Under the pieces are notes generated by a model that was given only the letters and a program-made list of their open reading frames with translations, was not told the origin of the DNA and searched no databases. Made by a program: the position numbers and the translations under genes. Positions 1,576-20,647 of a stretch of DNA of 20,662 nt are shown here, one piece after another. Within the stretch, counting starts at the first letter, position 1, and each line of letters begins with the position of its first letter. The stretch spans positions 1 to 20,662 of IMG/VR virus record IMGVR_UViG_3300000117_000331; one strand, given 5' to 3'. Source of the stretch: a virus.

Positions 1576-3114
1576 TTACGAATTAAATTTGCCTTGAGCA
1601 ATTATTTCGTCATCACTTTCCAAATCATAACCAATACTATCGGTATCTACCTTCAATCTAAATGTAGTACCTACTTGTTGTATTTCTAAAGCGTCATGTT
1701 CCATATACTGACCATTTATAAAAAATATAAAGTCTTGTTCATTAGTAGAATCAAATCCTGTTGGAGCAGAAGCAGTAATTGCTGTAAAACTAGCAGTCTG
1801 TGCTGTAATAGCATTAGACTTTTTCACAAAACTCTTTCTAACATATTGGTCAAATGTAGTTACATCTGTTCCAACATTACCACCATTTAGTGTAAGCGAA
1901 CCACTAATAGATACCGAACCAGTAAATTCTTGAGTATCTTCTAAATTATTACCAAATATATTTGAACCACTATGATTTGATTGAGTAACATTTATTACCG
2001 AAGAAGATACTATGTAATTTTCTGCTATTATGTCTCCTTGTACTACCCAATCTGTATTTACTTGAGCCTTTCCATCTTGTCTCTGTGATATTTCAAATGA
2101 TGTAGGACCAATATGTAATGTATTAGAAGCAGTTACATTTGAGAATTGTACTGTACTTGATGTACCAACATCTTGTCCGATACCAAATGTAAAATTACCA
2201 GGAGTAGTTCCATCAAATGTTGTTCCACCGTCAATCGTAAGTCCTGTTCCACCGAAGAAACTTACTGGATTATCTAATCCTGCAGAACTACCTCTACCCT
2301 GCATTGTTACCTTTACATCCTTAGATGTTACAGCTCCTAAATCTATACCAATACCATCTTCTATTATAATTCTTTTTGGTGTCAATTCTTTTTGTGTTGT
2401 AACTACACTTGAAAATTCTTCTGGTAACAAATACCCATTCATTGTTACATTGAATGTGGTTTTTATAATTCTTTCTGAATTTACATTTATCTCACTGGCA
2501 TCTGTATAATTATTTATCTGTGTTCTAAATTTGAACTTGCCATCCTCTCCCCAATAAGAACCTTCTGAATAAATTATTTGTTCTACCAACTTATTCATTT
2601 GTTCTGTATATGAACACCAAAGTACAAATTCATATTCTAATTTTATGTAATCTGGTACTGGTACAGCATACATTTCTTTTGTAGGTGTTAGTCCCCTTTG
2701 TACAGAAAATTTATCATAACGATTTTTTGAAGTATATTGTTTTTGAAAAGTATACTTTAGTCTAGGATTGAGAGGATCCATTTTATCAACAGGCAAAGTC
2801 TCATCTTTTTCAATAGAAGTTCTTTTGAATGCTATTAGAGGAATTATAAGTTGTTTTTTATTATCATATAAAAATCCCTTTTTTTGAGCCATAGTCCATC
2901 TTTCAGGATTAGCATACATAATTGGAACTTTTACAGTTTCACCATTTTCTTCTACTGTTGGTTTTATAACATTATTGAAATAATACATAATAGTAGCATC
3001 AATATCCATCAATCCTACTGAAAGATTTTTTACATTATCATCATTTCTAGACCTATCTCTACCACGATTTTTATCCCTTCTAAGAGATCGTGGAATTGGT
3101 TTTTCACGAGCCAT
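1576..3114 (-). CDS. gp15-like tail terminator (tail completion) protein with fibre-like C-terminal extension
   Basis: This 512-residue protein resembles T4 gp15, the protein that caps the tail tube and sheath at the neck. Matching blocks, from memory of T4 gp15, are VKVPIMYANPERW (61-73), LIIPLIAFKRTS (89-100), the PDYIKLEYEFVLWCSYTEQMN stretch with VEQII (154-181), and a closing TFNVTMNGYLLPEE (220-233). T4 gp15 is about 272 residues, so residues 240-512 are extra. The extension contains fibre-like strands (GSVSISGSLTLNGG, about 399-412) and ends in a compact domain (about 460-512) with FINGQYMEHDALEI and LESDDEIIAQGKF, a type seen in phage structural proteins. The start overlaps the previous stop in TAATG, with AGGAG upstream. 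Placement after gp13- and gp14-like genes matches T4 order. The gp15 domain call is fairly secure; the role of the extension is inferred. Confidence 0.7.
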   Translation of the reverse strand: MAREKPIPRSLRRDKNRGRDRSRNDDNVKNLSVGLMDIDATIMYYFNNVIKPTVEENGETVKVPIMYANPERWTMAQKKGFLYDNKKQLIIPLIAFKRTSIEKDETLPVDKMDPLNPRLKYTFQKQYTSKNRYDKFSVQRGLTPTKEMYAVPVPDYIKLEYEFVLWCSYTEQMNKLVEQIIYSEGSYWGEDGKFKFRTQINNYTDASEINVNSERIIKTTFNVTMNGYLLPEEFSSVVTTQKELTPKRIIIEDGIGIDLGAVTSKDVKVTMQGRGSSAGLDNPVSFFGGTGLTIDGGTTFDGTTPGNFTFGIGQDVGTSSTVQFSNVTASNTLHIGPTSFEISQRQDGKAQVNTDWVVQGDIIAENYIVSSSVINVTQSNHSGSNIFGNNLEDTQEFTGSVSISGSLTLNGGNVGTDVTTFDQYVRKSFVKKSNAITAQTASFTAITASAPTGFDSTNEQDFIFFINGQYMEHDALEIQQVGTTFRLKVDTDSIGYDLESDDEIIAQGKFNS

Positions 3115-3136
3115 TATATACTCCTAACACTTTCTA
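3112..3136. repeat. Direct repeat copy 1 at the orphan gene/gp15-like junction
   Basis: This 25-base segment matches 4014-4038 with one mismatch (17 identical bases, one mismatch, seven identical). It covers the end of the 300-residue orphan gene, the ribosome-binding site AGGAG and the ATG of the gp15-like gene. The repeat period is 902 bp, exactly one gene. Confidence 0.8.
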
Positions 3137-4016
3137 AAATTCTTCCACCTTTTGATGTCAACCATTTTCTAAACTCAGATGGTTTTCCATATTTAATATC
3201 TCCGACAAAACTTTTCAATTCTTTTTTATCATTATCACTCATAAGTTTTTCAACTCTACTTAAAACAAATGCACTTTTAATTTTTACATCGTAAACTAAT
3301 ATTTCATTCCAAGTTTTGAAATAGCTATCTTTCAAACCGCCCTTTGTCATATTGTCAAAAACAATTCTTTTATTTTTAATCAAAAATTTTTTTTGAGCAT
3401 CCATCCAATCTCTAATAAATTTATTATCAACTTGATTTCTAATTTTTTTCGCATCTTTCTGAACTTCACCATAAGGTCTTTTATCATTTTGTAAATGTTG
3501 TAGTTCTTTTTTCAATCTTTTATTGTAATCTTCTGGTGTTAATTTTTGTTTCTCTAACTCTCCTCTGAAAGCATATTCACTATCTTCTCCCACTACCTTT
3601 TCGATATTTACCCATCTACGGCCTGTTTTGTCTGGTGTACTCATTATATCTTCCCAACTTCTACCTAAAAGAAATCCCTCAATGTGGAATGCCAAACCAC
3701 CCATAGTTTGAATACCCTTTGCCTTATCTAAACCAGAACCTCTTCCTACATGAGAAAAAGTAGATATAGATTTTTTCTTACCAATAACTTTTTTAAGTTG
3801 TTTGTATCTTGATAAATCACTAACATGAAACGAACTAACTTTTTGCTTTCCAATAATGTTGTCCATCAGTTTTGGATAAAGAGCAACTTTATCACCTCTC
3901 ATTTGCATCTTTATAGTTTTTTCAGTATGAGCAGGAAACCATTTCTCTTCACCTTTATGTGTTAAAAAGACACCACCTTCTCTGTTTTCAGTCAACAAGT
4001 CTTTTAATAGAATCAT
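3114..4016 (-). CDS. Orphan 300-residue protein, possible packaged head protein
   Basis: No confident family assignment. The N-terminus, MILLKDLLTEN, carries an L-T-E site at residues 8-10 that fits the (L/I)-x-E cleavage rule of T4-type prohead proteases, as in the short leaders of T4 internal head proteins and Alt. Residues about 60-136 look like a compact alpha/beta domain: SSFHVSDLSRY (61-71), SISTFSHV (83-90), GGLAFHIEG (106-114) and GRRWV (132-136). The STFS strand loosely recalls the STS motif of ADP-ribosyltransferases, but no R-S-E signature can be claimed. The rest is charged and lysine-rich, probably helical. It lies between gp14- and gp15-like genes, where T4 has no extra gene, and overlaps both by TAATG junctions. 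A 25-bp direct repeat flanks it, suggesting an inserted cassette. Packaging and effector function are inference. Confidence 0.8.
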   Translation of the reverse strand: MILLKDLLTENREGGVFLTHKGEEKWFPAHTEKTIKMQMRGDKVALYPKLMDNIIGKQKVSSFHVSDLSRYKQLKKVIGKKKSISTFSHVGRGSGLDKAKGIQTMGGLAFHIEGFLLGRSWEDIMSTPDKTGRRWVNIEKVVGEDSEYAFRGELEKQKLTPEDYNKRLKKELQHLQNDKRPYGEVQKDAKKIRNQVDNKFIRDWMDAQKKFLIKNKRIVFDNMTKGGLKDSYFKTWNEILVYDVKIKSAFVLSRVEKLMSDNDKKELKSFVGDIKYGKPSEFRKWLTSKGGRILESVRSI

Positions 4017-5766: not shown

Positions 5767-7431
5767 TTAAACAGTATTGATGTGTGATACAATCACTTTT
5801 CCATAGAACTCTGGTCTGACCATCTTCTTAGCATAACGAGTCATTACCCCACGTCTTGGTGTGAAGTTTGTAGGATCGTATACTAATGGTGTCATAATCA
5901 TCGGTACATATGGAGCATACACAGCACCAGTCTCTAAGAAGTTACTACCTCTGAATCCAACTAGAATGTCGTTAGAAGTCATGTAAGGGTTCTTATAAAC
6001 AGTATATCTGTTATTTATAGAACCAACGGCTTCTACGCCCATAGCGTAATTCTTAGCAGAAGCATCACCAGTGTTAGCGACATATCCACTTACTGATTCT
6101 AAGATTGTAGAAGTTTCAGGTGAAACAACAACAAAATTAGCACCACCACGTAGTGTCTTCTGATGAATTGCGTTAGATACTGATTGTATCTTAATTCCAA
6201 GAGTTTGGAACCAAGATGGTTTTGTGTAAGCATTGGATGAACCACTAATTTCTGCGAAATCACTTTCAGCAGCACCAGAACCATCATACTCATAGCCGAC
6301 TTTAGCTGACCAATACTCTGTTTTAGCAGAAGCATTGATTGATAACATGTCTAAGATTTCCAAATCGATTTCCATCGCTATGTACTCACTTAGCATTGCT
6401 GTCAATTCAGCTTCAGCGTCAACACTATGGTAAGCGTTTAAGTCCTGAGCAAGTTCAGGTGTCCATACAGCTTTCAACTTACGAGTCTTAGCAACTATGC
6501 TGATAGATCGAAGTTGAATATCAACTTCTGGTATTCCAGCATCGCCTTCTCCAGAATATCCACCATCTGAACCTGCAGTTGGTGAAGCTTCCATATCGCC
6601 TCTTTGTTGATCTGTTGGTTGCTTATGATACTTTACCTTTACATCACCATGCGCCAATACAGCATTCTGGCGTACAATAAAACTTATTGCTGTACCAGCA
6701 GCGTTGATTGATGTATAATGAGGAAAGAATTCGTCAAATCCGGAACCAGAAACACTAAATGCTCTAATACCTTCTTTGTCAGGTCTTGTAAATGAATTAG
6801 CTGCATCAACAGTAATTTTTACAAGTTCGTTTTCTGTAGCTAAACCACTAGCAATAGAAGAACTTAAGTCTGGCTCAAATTCTACTTCCTTCCAAGTAGC
6901 AGAAGCAGTTGTATAAGCACTCGCGCCTATAGCTGCACCTAAAGTAAGTGCGCCTGTTTCTTCGTCATTAATAGAATATCCAGACTTACCACCACCGTAA
7001 AGTCCACCAGCAGCATCACCACTACCAGATGTGTTACCGAAGATATCAGCACCTGATGTATGGTTAGCAGTTTGTGTACTACCGTATTTGAAGTCTAGAT
7101 AAAAGATTAGTCCAGATGGAAGATTCATAGGTTGAACAGAAACGAATTCCTGTGCTGAAATTTCACCAAAGATTCTACGAACCAATGGTAAAGCAACACC
7201 TGACCATTCTTCTTTATTTCCACCAGTGCCTGTCTGTGACGCCTCTTTAATAAGCTGCGTAGCCTGGTTTTCTAGAAGAACAGACATTCCTGTTTTCTTT
7301 GTTGAATCTTCAATTCCATCTAGTAATCCTGTTGGCTCCCACTTATCGACTAACTGTCGAGTCTGTTTGAGGAGCTCTTGATGAGGGTTATGCCCTGTCA
7401 TCACATCACTTAGATTATCAAAGTTTGACAT
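5767..7431 (-). CDS. 23: Major capsid protein precursor (gp23)
   Basis: This 554-residue protein is the T4-type major head protein that forms the hexameric shell (T4 gp23 is 521 residues). The start of the mature protein can be predicted: LLENQATQLIKE (52-63) aligns with the T4 segment LLENQQNYLAE just before the gp21 cleavage site, so cleavage after E63 would remove the N-terminal 63 residues. Other T4-like blocks are SVQPMNLPSGLIFYL, TRKLKAVWTPELAQDLNAYHSVDAEAEL, NFVVVSPETSTILES, GFRGSNFLETGAVYAPYVP and NFTPRRGVMTRYAKK near the C-terminus. The start has GGGAG upstream, 14 bases after the scaffold stop. A strong terminator follows the gene. A Gly/Ser-rich insertion at about 120-165 may be a surface loop. 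Confidence 0.95.
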   Translation of the reverse strand: MSNFDNLSDVMTGHNPHQELLKQTRQLVDKWEPTGLLDGIEDSTKKTGMSVLLENQATQLIKEASQTGTGGNKEEWSGVALPLVRRIFGEISAQEFVSVQPMNLPSGLIFYLDFKYGSTQTANHTSGADIFGNTSGSGDAAGGLYGGGKSGYSINDEETGALTLGAAIGASAYTTASATWKEVEFEPDLSSSIASGLATENELVKITVDAANSFTRPDKEGIRAFSVSGSGFDEFFPHYTSINAAGTAISFIVRQNAVLAHGDVKVKYHKQPTDQQRGDMEASPTAGSDGGYSGEGDAGIPEVDIQLRSISIVAKTRKLKAVWTPELAQDLNAYHSVDAEAELTAMLSEYIAMEIDLEILDMLSINASAKTEYWSAKVGYEYDGSGAAESDFAEISGSSNAYTKPSWFQTLGIKIQSVSNAIHQKTLRGGANFVVVSPETSTILESVSGYVANTGDASAKNYAMGVEAVGSINNRYTVYKNPYMTSNDILVGFRGSNFLETGAVYAPYVPMIMTPLVYDPTNFTPRRGVMTRYAKKMVRPEFYGKVIVSHINTV

Positions 7432-7445
7432 TATATGTCTCCCAA

Positions 7446-8498
7446 TTAGATAAGGTTAGCTAACTTTTTAAACCTGTCTCTCAACTCTGAACCTTCAGTT
7501 ATTACTTCTTTTTCAGATTTTGTTGAGGCAACTGGCTTTGAAGCGCTACCCTTAGATTCATTAATTTCATTTTTTCTAGCACTACCAAAAGATTCACCAA
7601 GTGTAGAATACACTAACTTGACTTCTCTTAGGTTACTAGCTCTATCGAATTGCTCAACGACTTTCATTTTCTGATCGTTATTCAAACCATACTTTCTGAA
7701 TAGTTTGTTTGTGAACAGAAGTTTAGCATTTAGCAAGTTGACTTCGTTTAGCTTTCCACGCAACTCTTCAATTACAGAACGATGTTCAGCAAGATTTGAT
7801 TTTAGTTCGGAAACTTCATCCATTTCTTTTTCTTCATCTTCTTCTTCTGAAAGAGCCTTAAGAACTTCATCTAAATCAATGTCATCATCTTCATCCATGT
7901 CTTCTTTTTCGTCTTCTTCTTTAAGCTTAGCTTTTCCGTCATTTCCAACATTAGATGAGTCATTAGCTTTCGCATTGACTTTGTTATCAGATTTACCAAT
8001 GTCTGAAGAAACATCATTTTCATCAAGTTCTTCTTCATCTTCTTCATTGATTTCACTTTCTAGTTCTTTAATTACAGCTTCTAAGTCAAGGTCTTCGTCT
8101 TCGTCTTCTTCCATCTTTTCATCGTCCATTTCTTCTTCGACTTCGTCCTCTTCTTCCTCAGAAACTACAGGAGCGTACTTTACACCATCGATTTCAATGA
8201 TACCTTCTTCGACATCTTCGTCATCTTCATCATTGACTTCATCTTCATCGCCACGTTCTTCCAATTCGTCTCCGTCACGAGCCATTTTAGCTCTTTCTTC
8301 AACTTCATCTTCTTCCGCTTCATCAGATTCAGCTTCATCAACTTTATCTTCGTCATCCATTTCCATTTGGATTTTTTTAGACAACATAGATTGGATTTTT
8401 GGTGTGAAAGCCTCTTCTAAAGCCATCTTTGCATTTTCTAAAGCAGTCTCTCTAACCGCTTTAGCGTCAGCAATCGCTTCTTTTAAGAGATTATCCAT
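7446..8498 (-). CDS. 22: Prohead core scaffold protein (gp22-like)
   Basis: This is an extremely acidic protein (350 residues from the preferred start), with long Glu/Asp runs between about residues 45 and 230 and helical ends, immediately before the capsid gene as in T4. T4-type gp22 forms the prohead core and is degraded by gp21. The N-terminus MDNLLKEAIADAKA contains L-K-E (5-7), and the C-terminus contains VITEGSELRDRFKKLANLI with an I-T-E site, both fitting gp21 cleavage. I chose the ATG at 8498 because GGAG lies seven bases upstream (GGAGAATAAAATG); an in-frame ATG at 8510 has no ribosome-binding site. Codons for acidic residues make long Ser-rich open frames on the opposite strand, which are shadows. 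It may be longer in family terms because of the acidic tracts. Confidence 0.85.
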   Translation of the reverse strand: MDNLLKEAIADAKAVRETALENAKMALEEAFTPKIQSMLSKKIQMEMDDEDKVDEAESDEAEEDEVEERAKMARDGDELEERGDEDEVNDEDDEDVEEGIIEIDGVKYAPVVSEEEEDEVEEEMDDEKMEEDEDEDLDLEAVIKELESEINEEDEEELDENDVSSDIGKSDNKVNAKANDSSNVGNDGKAKLKEEDEKEDMDEDDDIDLDEVLKALSEEEDEEKEMDEVSELKSNLAEHRSVIEELRGKLNEVNLLNAKLLFTNKLFRKYGLNNDQKMKVVEQFDRASNLREVKLVYSTLGESFGSARKNEINESKGSASKPVASTKSEKEVITEGSELRDRFKKLANLI

Positions 8499-8563
8499 TT
8501 TATTCTCCATTTTAGGATATTATATAGTTATTGGGAACTATAATAGAATTATTATATTTTGAT

Positions 8564-8588
8564 ACACCGTATATGATAGGAACGGTGT
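8564..8588 (-). promoter_or_regulatory. Hairpin in the scaffold-gene leader
   Basis: A perfect 7-bp inverted repeat (ACACCGT at 8564-8570, ACGGTGT at 8582-8588) encloses an 11-base loop in the 121-bp gap between bS21 and the scaffold gene. It lacks a following U-run on the minus strand, so it is not a standard terminator. A second AT-only inverted repeat (ATAATA-GAAT-TATTAT) lies at about 8539-8554. Possible roles are transcript processing, stability or translational control; none can be shown here. Confidence 0.45.
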
Positions 8589-8604
8589 GTTTAGTTTAGA
8601 TATA

Positions 8605-8612
8605 TATAAATA
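8605..8612 (+). promoter_or_regulatory. TATAAATA element between bS21 and scaffold genes
   Basis: TATAAATA on the plus strand (TATTTATA on the gene strand), eight bases past the bS21 stop codon and over 100 bases before the scaffold start. It has the same orientation as the other gap elements. Confidence 0.35.
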
Positions 8613-8619
8613 TAAGTAT

Positions 8620-8847
8620 TTAGAATTTTCGTCCTCTATTTCTACTGTCTTCTTCTGATAATTTCACTTTTTTCCAATAATTACGAGCTTTTGCTTTGTT
8701 TTTCGTCTCTTTTCTAGCAGCAGAGGGTTTTTTATAAAATTCTCTTTCCCTCAACTCATAAAGGATACCTGCATCTTTTACTTTTCTTTTGAATATACTG
8801 AGAGCTTTCTCGATATTATTATTCTTTACTACAACTTTTATTGACAT
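8620..8847 (-). CDS. rpsU: Phage-encoded ribosomal protein bS21
   Basis: This 75-residue basic protein has the full bS21 pattern: IEKALSIFKRKVKDAGILYEL (12-32) followed by REREFYKKPSAARK (33-46) and a lysine/arginine-rich tail. It aligns without gaps, from memory, with E. coli bS21 (71 residues), including the REFY-KP-RK block. bS21 sits on the small ribosomal subunit next to the anti-Shine-Dalgarno end of 16S rRNA and assists initiation. Phage copies are known from marine phages and could replace or supplement host bS21 to favour phage messages. The gene lies among prohead genes, nine bases after the preceding gene, with AGAGG upstream of the ATG, so it should be expressed late with virion proteins. 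The C-terminal RNRGRKF is atypical but basic. Confidence 0.93.
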   Translation of the reverse strand: MSIKVVVKNNNIEKALSIFKRKVKDAGILYELREREFYKKPSAARKETKNKAKARNYWKKVKLSEEDSRNRGRKF

Positions 8848-8856
8848 ATTTACCTC

Positions 8857-9489
8857 TTAGTCTTTTTCGTTTTTTGCCTTATAATTTCTATCTACATAAT
8901 TGAAGAAGTCTTTTTTATCATCATCACTCATATCTTCAACACTAGATACATTAAATTTTTTCATAGCTTTTTTGAAGAATGCTTTATAATCGTCTTCTTC
9001 TCTGAACATCATTTTATCAGCTTCTGACTGTACATCTCTATCTTCGTCATCGTGTCCCGTAACATGCCCTTCACCGATAGAATAATATCTACCTAAGATG
9101 TTACCCATATCTTCATATAGTCCACTCATTCTTTCTTGTAAAGAATTAGCTTCACCAGCTACTTTACCAAATTGTTTAGATAGATTTGTAAGTTCTTTCA
9201 TATTACGACTAACTGTAATCTTATCGAACATATCACCTGCTTCAGATAGAGTATGTTGAGCAGCACCTTCTGCTATAGAAGAAAGGTTTTCAGCAACCTC
9301 TTTTAGATTACCTTTACCATATATAGATTCACCAATAGAATTAAAAGCATTGATTTTAGATACCAACTCCTTTACATCAACTTTTGGTTCTTCTTTTTCT
9401 TCTTCTTCTTTTACCCAAGGATTTCTAGAAATCATTCCACCTTGTGTACTTACTTCGTTTAATAAATCTTTTAATTTTATGTTAGCCAT
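8857..9489 (-). CDS. Prohead-region protein with possible protease-cleaved leader
   Basis: No named family is assigned. This 210-residue protein starts MANIKLKDLLNEV, with L-N-E at residues 10-12 fitting gp21-type cleavage, and this leader resembles LLKDLLTE of the 300-residue orphan. A Glu/Lys-rich linker (about 27-36) leads to a long helical domain (about 38-140), including NAFNSIGESIYGKGNLKEV and a strong helix ending GLYEDMGNILGRYYSIGEGH. A second domain (about 160-205) contains YKAFFKKAMKKFNVSSVEDMSDDDKKDFFNYVD, a module I remember from other marine T4-like phage proteins. The gene has AAGGAG before its ATG and sits between the 238-residue protein and bS21. A role as a prohead core component, processed with gp22, is plausible but inferred. 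Confidence 0.8.
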   Translation of the reverse strand: MANIKLKDLLNEVSTQGGMISRNPWVKEEEEKEEPKVDVKELVSKINAFNSIGESIYGKGNLKEVAENLSSIAEGAAQHTLSEAGDMFDKITVSRNMKELTNLSKQFGKVAGEANSLQERMSGLYEDMGNILGRYYSIGEGHVTGHDDEDRDVQSEADKMMFREEDDYKAFFKKAMKKFNVSSVEDMSDDDKKDFFNYVDRNYKAKNEKD

Positions 9490-10234: not shown

Positions 10235-10837
10235 TTATCCTCTCAATATATCATTGATTACTGATTCAACTTTACCATACTTACCATCACGAACAGGAGA
10301 ATTATTATCAACACTCTCATTCATAGGATGAAGAAATGCACCATGCGTAGATGGATTAGAAACAAAGTCAAAAGCAATCAATTCAAAATCGTCACCGACT
10401 TCTTGAGCACCATTTTCATTTACTGGTGAAACAGAACCCATACCACGAGAAGAGATACCCAACTTTATTCCGTTTTTGAATAACTCTCTCAAAATGTTAC
10501 CACTTGGTGTTGTAAGTATTTCTACTGTACCTACTAAATCGTCACCATTGAAAGCCATCTCTGTAATATTGTGAGATACATTCTGTAAGTTCACAACAGA
10601 TGATTCAGGATGGTCTAACTCACCCATAGCTCTTTTTTGTTTTACGAAGCCTTCGGAATACTTTTTTGCCTCCCGCATTAGAATTTCTTTTGGATACACT
10701 CTACCATTTTGGTTTTTGGTATCTGCTCTCTGTAAGATACCTTTGACAACTAACTTTCCGTTGTTCTCTTTCATAGCCTCATTGATTTGTTCGGCTCCTA
10801 TTTCGAATGGTAGATAATCTACTATTAATTTTTTCAT
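10235..10837 (-). CDS. 21: Prohead maturation protease (gp21)
   Basis: This 200-residue serine protease of the T4 gp21/herpesvirus-type assembly protease fold cleaves the scaffold, capsid protein and internal proteins after (L/I)-x-E. Visible motifs are GRVYPKE (45-51), GELDHPESS with the probable catalytic H76, KLGISSRGMGS with the probable nucleophile S129 or S130, and FELIAFDFVSNPST with D157. The N-terminus has its own I-N-E site (18-20), consistent with self-processing. Length matches T4 gp21 (212 residues). The start overlaps the previous stop in ATGA, with TAGGAG upstream. Position between portal and scaffold matches T4 order. Confidence 0.93.
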   Translation of the reverse strand: MKKLIVDYLPFEIGAEQINEAMKENNGKLVVKGILQRADTKNQNGRVYPKEILMREAKKYSEGFVKQKRAMGELDHPESSVVNLQNVSHNITEMAFNGDDLVGTVEILTTPSGNILRELFKNGIKLGISSRGMGSVSPVNENGAQEVGDDFELIAFDFVSNPSTHGAFLHPMNESVDNNSPVRDGKYGKVESVINDILRG

Positions 10838-11730
10838 TTTAGACTCCTAAATGTTCTATCATAAATTTCTTTAAATTTTTTGGGATTAGTTTCTGACTCT
10901 CCCTCTTTTAGAAATGATAAGTCCATATTATGTTTTTTCATTGTAGCAATTGCTTGTTGTTTACTATATTTAAATCTTTTCATTAGAAAGTTCATCAACT
11001 CTTTACCATCTATGGATTTAGTACCAGCTTCTTTTACTGTTTCATTTTTCTTATCTTTCTCTAATGCTTCTTTAGCATAAGAACCTAAGTCTAATAATGT
11101 ATCATCACCTTCACCATCCATAGCATTTTTCATCTTTCTGTCATTCATAAAGACTTCTAAAGCATTCATCATTTCATCTCTACTATCAAAATACATAGCC
11201 TGTCCACCTGAGCCAATTCCAATTTGATACTCAACACCCGTTTGATCTTCTGATGGATTAGCAGAGACGACTAATTCGTTTTCAGGATCATCATCTCCTC
11301 TTGTAACTGAATGTACCATACCACCATCCATTTCTGATTCGGATGTTGATAAATTGTATGATTGGTAGATACCTTTTCTTTTTGGATTGAACCAATTATC
11401 TAGTTTATCAGCAATTACTTTATTTTCGTTATCAGCTTTTTCATCTGCTTGAAGATCATCGCCGTCATCTCCGTCATCTCCGTCACTATCTCTGTCGAAA
11501 TCACCACCACCTAATTTTTTGCCAGATGGTTTTTCTTTTTCTTTTTCACTATCATCTTCACCATCGTCCTGCATCTTATCCCAAGCAATCTTTGCTGGAT
11601 GGTCTTTTTCCAGTGTTTTAGCTGAACCAGCTTTCATTTCACCTGACTCACCATCTTTCTTTTTATACTTGATGATTTTTTCGTCATCAACTTCATTTAT
11701 ACTTTTTGCAATTTCAAATAGTGAAATCAT
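10834..11730 (-). CDS. Acidic prohead-cluster protein with Gly-Asp-Asp repeats
   Basis: Family unnamed. This 298-residue protein begins MISLFEIAKSINEVDDE; I-N-E at 11-13 fits gp21-type cleavage. Residues about 15-52 (IIKYKKKDGESGEMKAGSAKTLEKDHPAKIAW) form a short module I remember from other phage proteins, with a beta hairpin and a helix. A low-complexity acidic region (about 53-105) includes tandem GDD repeats. A second folded part (about 105-230) contains DNWFNPKRKGIYQSYNL and an antiparallel-strand pattern around GVEYQIGIGSGGQAMYFDS. The C-terminus (about 235-298) looks helical, with MNFLMKRFKYSKQQAIATMKKHNMD. It lies directly before gp21 and overlaps both neighbours by ATGA. It could be a prohead core or packaged protein; no enzymatic motif was seen. 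Confidence 0.8.
   Translation of the reverse strand: MISLFEIAKSINEVDDEKIIKYKKKDGESGEMKAGSAKTLEKDHPAKIAWDKMQDDGEDDSEKEKEKPSGKKLGGGDFDRDSDGDDGDDGDDLQADEKADNENKVIADKLDNWFNPKRKGIYQSYNLSTSESEMDGGMVHSVTRGDDDPENELVVSANPSEDQTGVEYQIGIGSGGQAMYFDSRDEMMNALEVFMNDRKMKNAMDGEGDDTLLDLGSYAKEALEKDKKNETVKEAGTKSIDGKELMNFLMKRFKYSKQQAIATMKKHNMDLSFLKEGESETNPKKFKEIYDRTFRSLK
11462..11485. repeat. 9-bp tandem repeat encoding Gly-Asp-Asp
   Basis: About 2.7 copies of CCGTCATCT in tandem on the plus strand, encoding the GDDGDDGDD run of the acidic prohead-cluster protein. The 9-bp unit keeps the frame and could change in copy number by slippage. Confidence 0.8.
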
Positions 11731-11926: not shown

Positions 11927-12346
11927 TTACTGTAATTGTCCTACTTTGTTTGCTAGTTTTACTAACCTCTCACTTATTTTATGTAAAGCCTTATGTGTAT
12001 TTTTCCAATATGAACCTGAGTTTACATTCATCTCTTTCTTCAATCGTACATTCATATCAATGAGTTTACTCAGTTCTGTTAGGGAATTCCTAACTTCTCT
12101 CATTGAACGACCAATCTTTTGCTTTGGTGTGAGGGTTTCATCATTCCTATAGTTATGATATTTACCCTCATTTACTTTTTTGTATCCAGCAACTTCTGGA
12201 TCTTCATGACCTTTTTTCTTTTTACTGAATGCATATGGCGTTTGATAGCCAGGCACATTAGCACTTGTAGAAGCTTCTTCTAATGAACTAACCTCATCGA
12301 TTAGCATTTCTTGAACTCGCGCTCTTAGTTTATTTTCCAGTGACAT
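11927..12346 (-). CDS. Conserved prohead-cluster protein, function unknown
   Basis: This 139-residue protein starts MSLENKLRARVQEMLIDEVSSLEEAS. Two (L/I)-x-E sites (I-D-E at 16-18, L-E-E at 22-24) lie in the N-terminal helix and could release residues 19 or 25 onwards. Next come ANVPGYQTPYAFSKKKK (about 29-45) and a basic helical domain: LTPKQKIGRSMREVRNSLTELSKLI (about 82-106), then WKNTHKALHKISERLVKLANKVGQL (about 113-138). I remember similar proteins near the portal in marine T4-like phages. The first 17 bp overlap the 3' end of the upstream gene; AAAGGAG precedes the ATG. A head-core role is inferred from location only. Confidence 0.8.
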   Translation of the reverse strand: MSLENKLRARVQEMLIDEVSSLEEASTSANVPGYQTPYAFSKKKKGHEDPEVAGYKKVNEGKYHNYRNDETLTPKQKIGRSMREVRNSLTELSKLIDMNVRLKKEMNVNSGSYWKNTHKALHKISERLVKLANKVGQLQ

Positions 12347-13190
12347 CCTTCAACTCCTTTAATAATTGATAGTACCTCATAAGAGTAATAACTTGATTAT
12401 CCTCTACAATCCTACCCTTTAGTAGCTTATCAGATTGTTTGATAGCCTCTTTCAATTTTATGGATGTAACTTCATCATCTATATTAGGTAAAAACGATTG
12501 GAGCTGTTTTTTGACTTTTATAGATTCTTTTTCTACAAATTCTTTTAGTTGGTTTGTATTTGAGATATTATTGATATATTTTCTCAACAGACCTTTTTGT
12601 TGTTCACTAAGTGTTTTGTATTTTTTATTAAATTTTTCAACTAATACTTGATATGTAAGTAGTCTCAAATCTTTTTCTGATTTTTTATAAGTTTCTAAAG
12701 TTTTTGATTCAGTCTTTAGATGTTTTCTCTTCTTTTTTGTAATTGATTCTATTATAGTAAACTTAGAATTAGTTTCAGTAGAAGGATCAGTAGTGGTTAG
12801 AGACTCAAATAATTTATAAATAGAAGCATATACTTTATAGTTAGGGATTCTAGCCATAAAGAATTGGTCTACACTATATGAGTTCTTTATTTCACTAACT
12901 AAGTTATATTTTTCACGACGAAGCTGGGAACGATTTATCTTATTGTATGTCTTTAATACAGCATCAATCAAATGATTAGCCTTATTTTCAGATTTATAGT
13001 TCTCAGTAGTTAATACTTTGTACAATTCATACTCCTTTCCTAACTGTGTGTTAGGTGAGAAGTACTTCTTCAATAGTCCAACAGCCAAACCATCTTTATT
13101 TTCGATAATATCTGCTGTTATTTGTCTGGTTATTAACTCAAAAAGGATACCTGTGTTCCTTACCTTTGAGTGTTTTATTTTATTACTCAT
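12330..13190 (-). CDS. Conserved protein downstream of the portal, function unknown
   Basis: This 286-residue lysine-rich, helical protein has no assigned family. Residues about 5-20 (IKHSKVRNTGILFELITRQ) are distinctive and resemble the KVKDAGILYEL core of bS21 encoded 4 kb away, though this may be convergence. The first 120 residues are the best-ordered part (FSPNTQLGKEYELYKVLTTENYKSENKANHLIDAVLKTYNKI). The C-terminal half is helical with many Lys and Glu residues (about 165-286) and could be a coiled coil. It follows the portal gene after a 46-bp gap with an AT palindrome; the ATG has GGAG upstream. T4 genes 67 and 68 occupy this region, but no similarity is claimed. Confidence 0.8.
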   Translation of the reverse strand: MSNKIKHSKVRNTGILFELITRQITADIIENKDGLAVGLLKKYFSPNTQLGKEYELYKVLTTENYKSENKANHLIDAVLKTYNKINRSQLRREKYNLVSEIKNSYSVDQFFMARIPNYKVYASIYKLFESLTTTDPSTETNSKFTIIESITKKKRKHLKTESKTLETYKKSEKDLRLLTYQVLVEKFNKKYKTLSEQQKGLLRKYINNISNTNQLKEFVEKESIKVKKQLQSFLPNIDDEVTSIKLKEAIKQSDKLLKGRIVEDNQVITLMRYYQLLKELKDVTGK

Positions 13191-15065: not shown

Positions 15066-16643
15066 TTATTTAATAAGCCATTCTAATGATTCTTTTACTT
15101 TTCCATCGGGCGTCCATTCCCAATTTGCGTCATCTACTTGATTGGAACTTTGTGGTAACATTTGTGTTGCCACGCCACTCAATGTTTTTTTCTGTAAGTC
15201 TATACCTTCTTGTCTCAATCTAAGAGCAGTATCCCTTACCCATAAACATATAGCGAAACTCATTACCAAGTCATCATTGTAACCCTGCATAGCTTCGGCT
15301 TTATTGTTATTATATATAAATACAAACAACTCATCAATTAATCGATTTGAACGGACAATTACTGACTTTTCTCTAAAGTATTCTTCTAATTTAGCAATTA
15401 CTAAAGGTCTTGTTTTCATTGTCATTGAAAAACCAGGAACCATATTTCTATCTTGTGTCCTGTATCTATTGTTTATCTGATGTTCTGTGTCTACATATTG
15501 TAAATCTTTACTTGTATAAAATAGATTAGGATAATCCCTATCTATTACTTGTTGGATTGTTGCCCAACCAATATTATTGTTTTCTATAACTAACAAAGCA
15601 TTATTGTATTCTGTTGATACATTTACTAATAAGTTACCAAAATCTTTTGTAGAAATTTTACCTTTATATTCAGCAACTTGTTCCATAGTCTCTACTTCCA
15701 TAATATGAAATGCAGAATAATCAGCACTATCTCCTCTACCAACATCAGCAGATACTACATAATCATTTGTATAATTTGGTGGTTGCCATACCCAAAGGTT
15801 ACTATCGACTCCTCTTTTCTCTAACGGATCATTACAATGTTTTTCTCTATACTCTTCCAATGTAACACCATCAATAACAGTCTGGCCTGAGGTAATGAAA
15901 TCACAATCACATTCTTGAGCAGCTAATGAAGGACCTAATAATTTATCTTGGTCTTTTCTCCACTCCTCATCTCTATCAGGATGTAAGCTCCAATGTAATT
16001 TTATAAAATTCCAATCATTTGAACCATCTTCTGCACCAACCCAAGTCTTATGAAACCAATTACCAACACCATTAGGTGTAGATAATGCTATACATTGTCC
16101 ACCAGTAGATAGTGTTTGTGAAGCAGCAGCCCATATTGGTTCAATCTTATCAATGAAAGCAGCCTCATCAAGTATTAGAAGTGATAGAGCTTCTGACCTA
16201 CCAGCTTCCTCGCCACTCGCAACTGCTTTTATTTGAGAACCATTTTTATACCGTAACGATAGTTTATTATCCTCAACACAATTCTGTTTCAACCAAGAAG
16301 GTAAGTTGGCGTGCATTACCCTTACCTTAGTTACTAAGTTTTTAGCAGTATCTTGTTTAGTGGCAATAACTAAAATGTTTTTATCACTGTGAAATGTCAT
16401 CATCCACAATGAGTATCCAGCTGATAATGTAGATAATCCTAGTTGTCTAGCTTTCAAAATAACATTTAATCTATTATCTTCAAAAGTCTTTAGTGCTTTT
16501 TCTTGAAAGTCATATAGGTGAAACGGTACTTTACCTTTCATTGGATGCTGAACTACACAGTACTTTTTTAAAAAGTAAATTGGGTCTTGAGCAGACTTCA
16601 CATATTCTTTTTTAATTACTTCTTTTAGTACTTTTGGTTTCAT
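15066..16643 (-). CDS. 17: Terminase large subunit (gp17), ATPase and nuclease
   Basis: This 525-residue packaging motor pumps DNA into the prohead and cuts it. ATPase motifs: Walker A-type KARQLGLST (64-72), Walker B LLILDE (155-160) with E160 as catalytic carboxylate, and coupling motif ALSTPNG (186-192). Nuclease acidic residues: D300 in VVSADVGRGDSADYS, E354 in VIENNNIG and D457/D458 in GYNDDLVMSF. T4 gp17 is 610 residues; this copy lacks a long N-terminal extension. I chose the ATG at 16643 because it overlaps the previous stop in TAATG with AGGG upstream; an in-frame ATG at 16679 would overlap the previous gene by 37 bp. No small terminase subunit is recognised in the window. Confidence 0.95.
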   Translation of the reverse strand: MKPKVLKEVIKKEYVKSAQDPIYFLKKYCVVQHPMKGKVPFHLYDFQEKALKTFEDNRLNVILKARQLGLSTLSAGYSLWMMTFHSDKNILVIATKQDTAKNLVTKVRVMHANLPSWLKQNCVEDNKLSLRYKNGSQIKAVASGEEAGRSEALSLLILDEAAFIDKIEPIWAAASQTLSTGGQCIALSTPNGVGNWFHKTWVGAEDGSNDWNFIKLHWSLHPDRDEEWRKDQDKLLGPSLAAQECDCDFITSGQTVIDGVTLEEYREKHCNDPLEKRGVDSNLWVWQPPNYTNDYVVSADVGRGDSADYSAFHIMEVETMEQVAEYKGKISTKDFGNLLVNVSTEYNNALLVIENNNIGWATIQQVIDRDYPNLFYTSKDLQYVDTEHQINNRYRTQDRNMVPGFSMTMKTRPLVIAKLEEYFREKSVIVRSNRLIDELFVFIYNNNKAEAMQGYNDDLVMSFAICLWVRDTALRLRQEGIDLQKKTLSGVATQMLPQSSNQVDDANWEWTPDGKVKESLEWLIK

Positions 16644-17053
16644 TATATTTTCCCTAAAATAAATCCTATTCCTAACCAAAGGTATTGATTCTCATACCAT
16701 TTTGGTTCAACCAACTCTACCATCTTCTCATTAGCAACATCACGTGCTTTTAATAAATCAATTTGTTTTCTCTGTGCTAATAGCATCAAAGTATCTAATT
16801 TTGCTTGTTCCTCTAATTCAATAATAACAGAATCAGATTTACTAATAGTTATCTTCTGAAATTCTATCAATGTATTAGCTTTAGCTATCTTTTCTTCCCA
16901 TTGAGCATCACGTGCTTTTAACATTTCTAATGCTTGTTCTTGTGTAAAAGTAGTGACTACTTTTCCATCTTTCTTTATGCTTTGTCCATCTACCAAAGAT
17001 AGAACGAAAAATGATATAAGAAAGTATTTTAATATTTTCATAGATAGTCTCAT
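16643..17053 (-). CDS. Small envelope-type protein: signal peptide, coiled coil, C-terminal hydrophobic segment
   Basis: This 136-residue protein has no recognised family. The N-terminus (MKILKYFLISFFVLSLVDGQ from residue 5) is a good signal peptide or membrane anchor. The middle (about 38-110) is charged and helical, with two copies of the motif LKARDxxxEK (LKARDAQWEEK, LKARDVANEK) about 56 residues apart. The C-terminus, WYENQYLWLGIGFILGKI, is hydrophobic and could cross a membrane. An alternative start is the ATG at 17041. It overlaps the upstream gene by ATGA and the terminase by TAATG. With the preceding coiled-coil membrane protein it might form a lysis (spanin-like) or envelope-associated pair, but no lysis gene is nearby, so function is open. 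Confidence 0.75.
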   Translation of the reverse strand: MRLSMKILKYFLISFFVLSLVDGQSIKKDGKVVTTFTQEQALEMLKARDAQWEEKIAKANTLIEFQKITISKSDSVIIELEEQAKLDTLMLLAQRKQIDLLKARDVANEKMVELVEPKWYENQYLWLGIGFILGKI

Positions 17054-17899: not shown

Positions 17900-20647
17900 C
17901 TATACGAATTTTAACATACCTAAGATTTGGTTAGCTGGAGCAAAAGCGCCAGTATATTTATATAACTTTCCTTTGAACACAAAAGTAATTCCTTCTGACG
18001 GAACAACTGATTTCAAACCACCAATAGCATTAAGTCTATCTAATTGAGTTTTCAATGTACTCAATACTTTTGGGTCTGTTGATTTTTTTACTTTGTTTAT
18101 AGCCTTAACTAAATCCTTACGAATTTGCTGAGCTGCTTTAGTTGGATTAGCTGCTATGAAGTCACTCATATTTTTTAGGATTTCAGCACCCAATTCAAAG
18201 AAAAGAACTTCCCAATCTCTGATATGTTTCTTTTGTAACTTAGCGTGATCCATTTTATCAGTTGATAGAACCCAATCTAAAAACTTTGGATACTCCTTTA
18301 AATCTTTTTTAATCATTGGAACTTTATAAGACTTATCAAAAAATGCCCATCTCTTAGTTAGTTTCATAAGAACATCATTTGATGGATTTGGATAATCTGT
18401 ATTTTTAGCACCATTATAAATATACTCCATCCAATATGCTTGATGATAATCACCTAATGTAGCACTGTCTGTAAGTTTGTAGATGTTTTGTAGTTTTTGT
18501 AGTTTACCTAAAAAGTAACTTTGTCTTTGAGCAAAATTCTTTACTACTGGCAATTGTGTAATAAATGGTTTTGTGATACTATATGTTCTTTGTACATCTT
18601 GATTTATCTGTTTTATCATACCAGCTAACATTCTAGCACTTCCTCTATCTTCTCCGATTGGAGAACCAGCAGAATCATACTCAATAGTTCCGTGAAATTG
18701 TAATAATGATTTATCATAAGGTATGACATTTGAAGTTGCTGGGTACATCACTTCTAATGACATAAACTTTTTACCTTCAGCAAATATTTTGTCTTTTTGT
18801 TTTTTACTTAGCCCATTTAGTGCTTTTTGTAAATCTGTCATAGCAGATACAAATGCTTTTTCTATGTCTCCTCTACCAGAAAACATATTTCTTATACCAC
18901 TTATGTCTAAACTATTAGCACCAAAATTCTTTATATGTCCTTTGTTTCTAGCTGCAACTAATTTTCCATTCTTCCAACTAATCATTATATTCTGTCCATC
19001 AGTCTTTTCTGTAACAGGACCTTCTTTATCAAGATTACCTTGAAGTGTATTAATAATTAGTGTTTTAAAATCTGAAAATGTTAAATTTTTATTATCAAAT
19101 GGATGATTCAAATGCCCATAAGCACCACCCTCTAATAATAATTCTTTCTTCCACCAATCTTTAGAAAATGTTTCTACTACTTGAAATTCATTTGGTAGGT
19201 ATTCTGTTGCATTAGCACCAGCTGCAAACACACTTCCAATAAGATTATCTATAGCAGCATCAGTACCCATCCAACTTACAACATCCCATCCTAAAGGTTT
19301 TATTACTTCATCCATCCAACTTTTATATTTTTCTACAGCAAGATTAGAACCCTTTTCTTGACCATGATCTAAATAAGTCAATGGTACAGATTTATATGCA
19401 TCTTTTATAGAGTTCTTAGCACCATCTCTTATCATAAAATCTAAAACTGCCCATCCAGCGTCTTCATATATAGAGTCTAACCATTCTTTTGATACTTTTA
19501 CATATTCAGCATAATCTTTATGAAATGTTGAAGGACCATCATCTAAATTTCCCGCAACAGAATTACTAGCTTCAATCAGATATTCTTTTATCAACTCATC
19601 AGATAGAGTGTATGTCTCAAATAATTGTTTAAATTTATTTGTCATCATAGTGAAAACACCTTTATCAAAATATCCAAATACTTTTTTGAATGTTTTTTGT
19701 TTTTCACTATCATCATATTTTGGAGAACCTAATAATTCTCTCATCTTCGTACCACTCATAGTTCCAGATTGTGGAGCAGTTATGATATATCCATGCTCTT
19801 CAAATCCCATCATAGGTTTACTTTTATTATAAGGTTGAAAGTACTTACCACCTAATCTACCAGCATCTTTTCCACCGACTGCATAAACGACTGCTGTAGT
19901 ATCAGCATCAAATTTTTTCAATAAGTTTTTTGCTACATATGGAGTTTTTTCTTGTACAATTCTATTTTTTGGAATTCCCATCTTTACCATATGACGAGCC
20001 TTTTCTTTGAAGTCCATAGGATGTCTTGGCAATTGTTTGAGATTAGAGGTGGTTATGTAAACTTCATCAAACTTTGACTTCATCCACTTATAAGTAGCAA
20101 GATGTCCTGAATGAAATGGTTGAAATCTTCCACCAAATACGCCAATGACTTTTTTGATTTCTTTTTGTTCTTTTAATTTTTTACCAGTATCTGTTTTTGT
20201 AAATGGGCCTCTTCTTATTGTTGAAAACCTCACAGGTGTCTCCATACCAAATAAGTTCTTAGGTGCTATAATTTTTAACTTAATCATCTTTGAACTATTA
20301 TCAACGCCTAATGTTTCAAATTCTATTTCTTTATATTTCTTACCCTTCATAGTAAGATTGTGACCTGTAATAAACTTTGCTACTTTACTGCCCTTTACGG
20401 CTTGTGCTTCACTTACTTTATTATAACCACTGCCATAGGGAACTGAAGTATTACCTTTCTTCTTCATCTTCTTTACCATCTTACGGCTTGGTGACGGTAA
20501 TATACCAGCAGGTGCACCGAACTCTTCGTTTGTGTCTTTCTTCATTATTCTAAATTTTAAAGCAGTCCTACCATTAATAAGTAAGTCTCCTTTTTCGTTA
20601 TAATCGATAGACTTAACAACTACCCTTTTATTCTTAAATCTACCCAT
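17900..20647 (-). CDS. Multidomain protein: NMN adenylyltransferase-like plus nucleic-acid ligase-like
   Basis: This 915-residue protein has at least four parts. Residues 1-160 are a basic N-terminal region. Residues 165-330 form a nucleotidyltransferase of the GxFxPxHxGH type, with GRFQPFHSGH (173-182) and a closing SGTKMREL (298-305), as in NMN adenylyltransferases and cytidylyltransferases. Residues 345-500 are an unassigned helical domain (SNSVAGNLDDGPSTFHKDY onwards). Residues 500-915 resemble covalent nucleotidyltransferases (DNA/RNA ligases): KTDG (548-551, candidate adenylated K548), ARNKGH (566-571), FMSLEVMYP (628-636) and EGITFVFKGKLYKYTG (885-900) as motif IV/V candidates. Some phages encode NAD and RNA-repair enzymes; this fusion would join both activities. 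(L/I)-x-E sites fall near domain borders (LIEA about 357-360, LLLEGG about 503-508). The start is close to the right edge, with a weak GGTG upstream. Domain calls are by eye. Confidence 0.75.
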   Translation of the reverse strand: MGRFKNKRVVVKSIDYNEKGDLLINGRTALKFRIMKKDTNEEFGAPAGILPSPSRKMVKKMKKKGNTSVPYGSGYNKVSEAQAVKGSKVAKFITGHNLTMKGKKYKEIEFETLGVDNSSKMIKLKIIAPKNLFGMETPVRFSTIRRGPFTKTDTGKKLKEQKEIKKVIGVFGGRFQPFHSGHLATYKWMKSKFDEVYITTSNLKQLPRHPMDFKEKARHMVKMGIPKNRIVQEKTPYVAKNLLKKFDADTTAVVYAVGGKDAGRLGGKYFQPYNKSKPMMGFEEHGYIITAPQSGTMSGTKMRELLGSPKYDDSEKQKTFKKVFGYFDKGVFTMMTNKFKQLFETYTLSDELIKEYLIEASNSVAGNLDDGPSTFHKDYAEYVKVSKEWLDSIYEDAGWAVLDFMIRDGAKNSIKDAYKSVPLTYLDHGQEKGSNLAVEKYKSWMDEVIKPLGWDVVSWMGTDAAIDNLIGSVFAAGANATEYLPNEFQVVETFSKDWWKKELLLEGGAYGHLNHPFDNKNLTFSDFKTLIINTLQGNLDKEGPVTEKTDGQNIMISWKNGKLVAARNKGHIKNFGANSLDISGIRNMFSGRGDIEKAFVSAMTDLQKALNGLSKKQKDKIFAEGKKFMSLEVMYPATSNVIPYDKSLLQFHGTIEYDSAGSPIGEDRGSARMLAGMIKQINQDVQRTYSITKPFITQLPVVKNFAQRQSYFLGKLQKLQNIYKLTDSATLGDYHQAYWMEYIYNGAKNTDYPNPSNDVLMKLTKRWAFFDKSYKVPMIKKDLKEYPKFLDWVLSTDKMDHAKLQKKHIRDWEVLFFELGAEILKNMSDFIAANPTKAAQQIRKDLVKAINKVKKSTDPKVLSTLKTQLDRLNAIGGLKSVVPSEGITFVFKGKLYKYTGAFAPANQILGMLKFV

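Follow-up and report, generated by a model that had tools for sequence, protein, structure and literature searches.

Why does a marine phage keep a gene for the ribosomal protein bS21 among the genes for its head? The question is raised by a 20,662-nt stretch of viral DNA (IMG/VR record IMGVR_UViG_3300000117_000331, positions 1 to 20,662), referred to below as the window. On its minus strand, an open reading frame at 8620-8847 runs from ATG to TAA and encodes 75 amino acids. The earlier note had described this gene as a complete bS21, which was borne out by the reading frame, by a match to PF01165 (9.5e-17, 60.9 bits with a cut-off of 27, model positions 1-54 of 55) and by the assignment to PHROG 21469 ('ribosomal protein S21'). 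It is the single bS21 copy in the whole 21.5-kb virus record. Its Shine-Dalgarno (SD) sequence, AGAGGT, is located 4 nt before the ATG and has a predicted duplex energy of -7.1 kcal/mol, which is among the stronger ones in the window. The gene is under purifying selection, with a median dN/dS of 0.09 and a maximum of 0.24 over 98 pairs. Judged by its sequence, the bS21 of this marine phage is an intact, old and conserved gene. In seven related loci (L028, L030, L031, L033-L036), bS21 apparently starts with TTG behind a strong AGAGGT SD, in place of ATG.

The head cluster and its putative late units

The bS21 gene is embedded in a T4-like head cluster that lies on one strand and contains, in this order, homologues of gp17, gp20, gp21 and gp23 (PF03237, PF07230, PF03420 and PF07068). 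The relevant features of the window are as follows.

15066..16679 (-), large terminase, PF03237
13237..15054 (-), portal gp20, PF07230, 258 bits
13221..13229 (-), late-promoter-like motif TATATTTAT, 39 nt ahead of the 286-aa gene; putative start of the bS21 unit
12330..13190 (-), 286-aa gene behind the portal; opens the putative late unit that bS21 closes
10834..11730 (-), 298-aa head-cluster protein, position conserved in relatives
10235..10837 (-), prohead protease, gp21-like, Peptidase_S77, PF03420, 98.4 bits
9518..10234 (-), 238-aa protein, function unassigned, PHROG 6437
8857..9489 (-), 210-aa head-cluster protein of no known family; N-terminus MANIKLKDLLNE, T4 capsid-targeting-like
8852..8857 (-), SD of bS21, AGAGGT; overlaps the stop codon of the 210-aa gene
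8620..8847 (-), bS21 (rpsU-like), 75 aa, complete; PF01165, PHROG 21469, dN/dS
8606..8614 (-), late-promoter-like motif TATATTTAT, directly after bS21; putative driver of the scaffold-MCP unit
8506..8595 (-), structured 5' leader of the scaffold gene; two hairpins, covariation
8582-8588 with 8564-8570 (-), leader hairpin 1
8536-8542 with 8523-8529 (-), leader hairpin 2
7446..8510 (-), acidic scaffold-like protein, by composition and place before gp23
5767..7431 (-), major capsid protein (MCP) gp23, PF07068, 256 bits
5697-5705 (-), late-promoter-like motif TATATTTAT

The earlier note gave bS21 a prohead protein and the scaffold gene as neighbours, which is correct in part. Downstream lies the acidic scaffold-like protein, for which no family match was found at 7446-8510 and which is scaffold-like by place and composition only; its start is probably at 8498, with the SD GGAG, and its N-terminus MDxLLKEAIADAKAVRETA is conserved. 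The upstream neighbour, however, is the family-less 210-aa protein, and the true prohead protease (PF03420) is present but is found two genes further upstream, at 10235-10837. The 210-aa gene is separated from bS21 by 9 nt, its homologue adjoins bS21 in all near relatives, and the two genes are probably co-transcribed. Within the same gene run as the terminase, a 915-aa protein (window 17900-20647, minus strand) carries a cytidylyltransferase-like domain (PF01467) in its N-terminal third.

The motif TATATTTAT occurs 61 times in sense and 12 times in antisense orientation in 16 near relatives, with 4.7 copies expected per strand, and 52 of 58 lie within 130 nt before a gene start in these relatives. 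The window itself contains seven copies on both strands, compared to 1.2 expected, and the 165-kb relative G001 has 14 sense copies versus a single antisense copy, its intergenic copies being found mostly before structural genes. Two positions are occupied in all 16 near relatives: one lies 39-46 nt ahead of the gene that follows the portal, the other straight after bS21 and 104-169 nt upstream of the scaffold gene; in 4 of the 16, a copy also stands about 26 nt before the 210-aa gene. The motif is likewise found about 40 nt before structural genes in the bS21-less clades and in the clade of locus L286. From its position only, we infer that TATATTTAT is a late promoter; with this placement, bS21 would end a unit that opens with the gene following the portal and includes the protease. 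The T4 late promoter TATAAATA was rejected as a candidate, since it lacks the intergenic coding-strand enrichment seen for TATATTTAT. bS21 is thus probably made late in infection: the late expression proposed earlier finds indirect support in a late-type head unit bracketed by TATATTTAT and in transcript data from related phages (Chen 2022, PMC9723584).

The structured leader of the scaffold gene comprises 14 pairs, with 98.9% of cells paired and five pairs changed on both sides. Its covariation score is 0.313 versus 0.098 after shuffling, and slid controls collapse. A covariance model built from 13 input sequences, which together with their near kin are matched by construction, gave at most one match per source, upstream of the scaffold gene; matches outside the input were obtained in immuto-like phages, L449, L461, L523 and L266. 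The leader, which follows the TATATTTAT motif, is also located at L139:6791-6881, L308:17246-17332, L449:15988-16067 and other sites. It matched no Rfam family, and a literature search with narrow terms yielded no description of it. A more elaborate bS21-scaffold leader with conserved TTAATGAATACC...TGACCGAACAA is present in L286, L407, L409, L413, L422 and L427. A link between the leader RNA and bS21 was rejected, as the leader is present in clades without bS21; the covarying RNA is a separate candidate for head-gene regulation.

Distribution, ancestry and host of the bS21 lineage

Relatives were gathered by bS21, by the protease and by the portal, which gave 160 loci with portal, protease and major capsid genes and 102 non-redundant rows for a portal tree. 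bS21 is found in the head cluster of 83 of the 160 loci, shares its strand with the major capsid gene in every one of the 83, and lies between the portal and the major capsid gene in 44 of the 102 non-redundant relatives. In the clade of the window, each locus that spans both neighbours has bS21, including those fetched by the protease. On the portal tree of 102 rows, which is rooted by midpoint only and has some unsure long branches, bS21 presence changes at least three times. Because of these three changes and of the basal carriers (L039, L214, L266 and Mel-JY01), the most parsimonious reading under the midpoint root is that bS21 was probably ancestral to the lineage and was lost three times, namely by the immuto-like clade (31 rows), by L438/L439 and by the 25 rows that make up the L518-to-L441 clade. 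PF01165 was absent throughout 18 records of 46-365 kb from the bS21-less clades. Identity in the portal rises with identity in bS21 (Spearman 0.73, Mantel p 0.002), which fits vertical inheritance. As far as these sequences tell, bS21 is inherited together with the head genes and is not a recent pick-up.

By portal similarity, the closest isolates are phages of Flavobacterium and Microcystis. The earlier note had proposed that bS21 phylogeny could point to the host, but bS21 gave no such pointer: the phage proteins are more similar to one another than to any cellular copy found, and the only matches in genome collections are misbinned phage contigs. MAGs labelled 'Flavobacteriales' and 'Euryarchaeota' were rejected as a route to the host on the same grounds, their matches being phage contigs of this lineage and thus binning contamination. 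The contigs concerned belong to Flavobacteriales NAT55 (G007 C3, C35, C58; NZWA01000064.1 and others) and Euryarchaeota SP3014 (PBHZ01000028.1); the apparently cellular contigs of the Flavobacteriales MAG are mostly of 24-33% GC and SD-less. The TonB-dependent receptor of the phage led no further, since its 72% match itself lies on a phage contig; the best cellular receptor matches in the phylum of the MAG reach about 50% and come from genomes whose GC content is very different. A tmRNA search gave no close match in 296 genomes of that phylum, and the tag of the G001 tmRNA, VNDEPTYAYAA, is unlike all 14 tags read from it. The abundance of SDs in the phage genes suggests an SD-using host.

G001 offers further observations. 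Its TonB-dependent receptor (L142:3599-6334) is full-length at 912 aa and contains CarbopepD_reg_2 and Plug domains. Its gene is flanked by those for ribonucleotide reductase and a DNA-polymerase-like protein, and another phage of this lineage has a 72% identical copy (L157:1032-3767). A role in superinfection exclusion or as a receptor decoy is possible. The genes for tmRNA, peptide deformylase, HSP20 and tRNA-Gly lie close together (L136:9378-9797, 7892-8527, 3096-3557 and 10909-10981) and form a wider translation and proteostasis set. One phage genome encodes three proteins of the Mom family (PF25680; L142:9723-10481, L142:12167-12805 and L144:3260-4030), which suggest unusual DNA modification.

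Shine-Dalgarno use and the possible role of bS21

SDs were called in genes of at least 100 aa when the predicted SD:anti-SD duplex was below -5.5 kcal/mol. By this measure, 14 of the 18 such genes in the window (78%) have an SD, and 9 of 18 have a strong SD by motif, compared to 0.9 expected after shuffling, in agreement with the earlier statement that most genes here carry strong sites. The mean SD duplex energy of G001 is -5.6, and that of Flavobacterium phage immuto, from the same lineage, is -0.2. With a cut at 25% of genes, 35 of the 102 rows have both bS21 and SDs, 9 bS21 only, 4 SDs only and 54 neither; these scores depend on simple gene calling in fragments that mostly measure 8 to 22 kb and carry 6 to 23 genes apiece. 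SD use is low in all three clades that lack bS21. Since there are only three independent pairs or loss events, the association between bS21 and SD use is not significant after phylogeny is taken into account, and it may reflect mere host type. Phages L518/L523 make moderate use of SDs without bS21, and the clade of L286 and its kin has kept bS21 with almost no SDs and a Bacteroidia-like N-terminus, MLII. The SD-less loci L286, L407, L409, L413, L422 and L427 encode a short bS21 at the same place, without Tyr54 and with the Bacteroidia-like N-terminus MLIxxVKxGNIE.

The suggestion that bS21 biases ribosomes to SD-bearing messages is hence compatible with these data, and the SD-poverty of the three bS21-less clades is suggestive, although the association falls short of significance and the SD-poor L286 clade keeps the gene. 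With somewhat more belief than doubt, we favor the reading that the gene is an old core gene for a functional phage bS21 that is made late, enters the 30S subunit and favors the phage's own SD-bearing messages. The unit containing bS21 would be read late from putative TATATTTAT-type promoters; the protein would then enter host 30S subunits beside the 16S 3' tail, in the way that pelagiphage HTVC008M bS21 does in E. coli (PMC6375957), and with the host supply declining, ribosomes carrying it would keep or shift initiation to the SD-bearing late messages of the phage. With the HTVC008M protein, translation by E. coli ribosomes was almost lost (PMC6375957); a bS21 that is incorporated therefore does not necessarily improve translation. 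More tentatively, and as something we think possible rather than probable, the upkeep of bS21 may depend on SD-based initiation, the gene being kept along with SDs and lost on a move to SD-ignoring hosts, e.g., Bacteroidia. If this is true, the bS21-plus and bS21-minus sister clades are a natural experiment on phage bS21 function.

Another reading does without message choice. Ribosomes exchange bS21 easily and may lose it or run short of it, and a phage copy might only complete them late in infection. Such a generic supply needs no message selection and fits the late position, the purifying selection and the SD-less L286 clade that has bS21; the SD-poverty of all three bS21-less clades is left unexplained by it, though three events are few, and we consider it a possible but rather unlikely account. 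A more specific alternative starts from Bacteroidia, where bS21 helps to hide the anti-SD and Tyr54 stacks on A1534; in Flavobacterium johnsoniae, ribosomes with the Y54A substitution translate strong-SD messages about 3-fold better (McNutt 2023, PMC9976891). F. johnsoniae Tyr54 aligns with Ala54 of the window bS21 (stretch 7-52, query and chain in the same register), and Ala54 occurs in all near relatives, so that a phage Ala54 protein might free the anti-SD of a Bacteroidia host for phage SDs. The SD-richness of this phage next to an SD-less Flavobacterium phage of the same lineage would suit this idea, which depends on the host. However, Tyr54 does not track SD use across the lineage: a rule by which SD-rich phages lack Tyr54 and SD-poor phages have it fitted three loci and failed with wider sampling, with SD use intermediate in the Tyr54 clade and Arg54 present in the L286 clade, which is SD-less. 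Moreover, an aromatic pair one helical turn on, Tyr57/His57-Trp58, could replace the stacking by Tyr54, the flavobacterial MAG link is contamination, the G001 tmRNA tag is unlike the 14 from that phylum and the known flavophage relative is itself SD-less. We therefore regard unmasking of the anti-SD as very unlikely.

Packaging of bS21 into the virion and its delivery at infection, which had also been raised for this locus and was proposed for related phages (Chen 2022, PMC9723584), draws on the position in the head cluster. This position is no evidence for it; late units also hold unpackaged genes, and the N-terminus of bS21 is not capsid-targeting-like; the 210-aa neighbour has such an N-terminus, by a loose pattern that 2% of internal methionines also fit. 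Packaging thus gained no support and appears highly improbable to us. Even less credence is given to an extra-ribosomal role, e.g., binding of bS21 to the adjacent structured leader: a covarying RNA element does adjoin the gene, but this RNA is kept where bS21 is missing, and the family signature of bS21 is intact. Entry into the 30S subunit with a preference for SD-bearing phage messages remains our preferred explanation.

Comparison with known phage bS21 systems

bS21 is the commonest phage ribosomal protein, and the copy of Pelagibacter phage HTVC008M enters E. coli 70S ribosomes (Mizuno 2019, PMC6375957). Chen 2022 (PMC9723584) reported bS21 next to the genes for terminase, portal, protease and major capsid protein, with late transcription, and considered ribosome hijacking the likely purpose and packaging a possibility; in 310 of 900 published bS21 phages, a prohead protease lies within ten genes. 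The presence of phage bS21 in head clusters, its late expression, its incorporation into ribosomes and the idea of packaging are therefore already published (Mizuno 2019; Chen 2022). New here are the fixed place and strand, the probable ancestry with three losses, the purifying selection on the gene and the TATATTTAT-bracketed unit.

The Bacteroidetes phages of Chen 2022 are, like the phage of the window, T4-like myoviruses with bS21 a few genes from the terminase, portal, protease and MCP genes, and the same role has been proposed for it. In those phages, however, bS21 lies on the strand opposite to the head genes, in contrast to the same strand in 83 of 83 loci here, and has an aromatic residue 54, while the clade of the window has Ala54 and genes that use SDs. 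HTVC008M, which is also marine, belongs to another phage lineage; its bS21 is about 55% identical to that of the window over 42 residues, and pelagimyophage S21 has been reported outside any specific gene cluster (PMC7029224). Viral ribosomal proteins have an average pN/pS of 0.10 (Mizuno 2019, PMC6375957), compared to the dN/dS of 0.09 found here.

Two cultivated phages of the same lineage each have a portal about 50% identical to that of the window. Flavobacterium phage immuto (MW353175, Immutovirus) shares the head gene order, but no bS21 was found in it, and only 1 of its 21 genes has an SD. Microcystis phage Mel-JY01 (PP395634), the only cultivated relative with bS21 found here, shares both the place and the strand of the gene, which lies between the protease-side genes and the scaffold; the protein is about 46% identical with a different N-terminus, and SD use is weaker. 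On the question of why many aquatic phages carry bS21, the present lineage offers a defined and probably ancestral position in a probable late unit, as well as sister clades with and without the gene; the nearest clade that lacks it includes a cultivated Flavobacterium phage. With such a defined place and such sister clades, the hypothesis that phages steer ribosomes by means of bS21 can be turned into specific tests.
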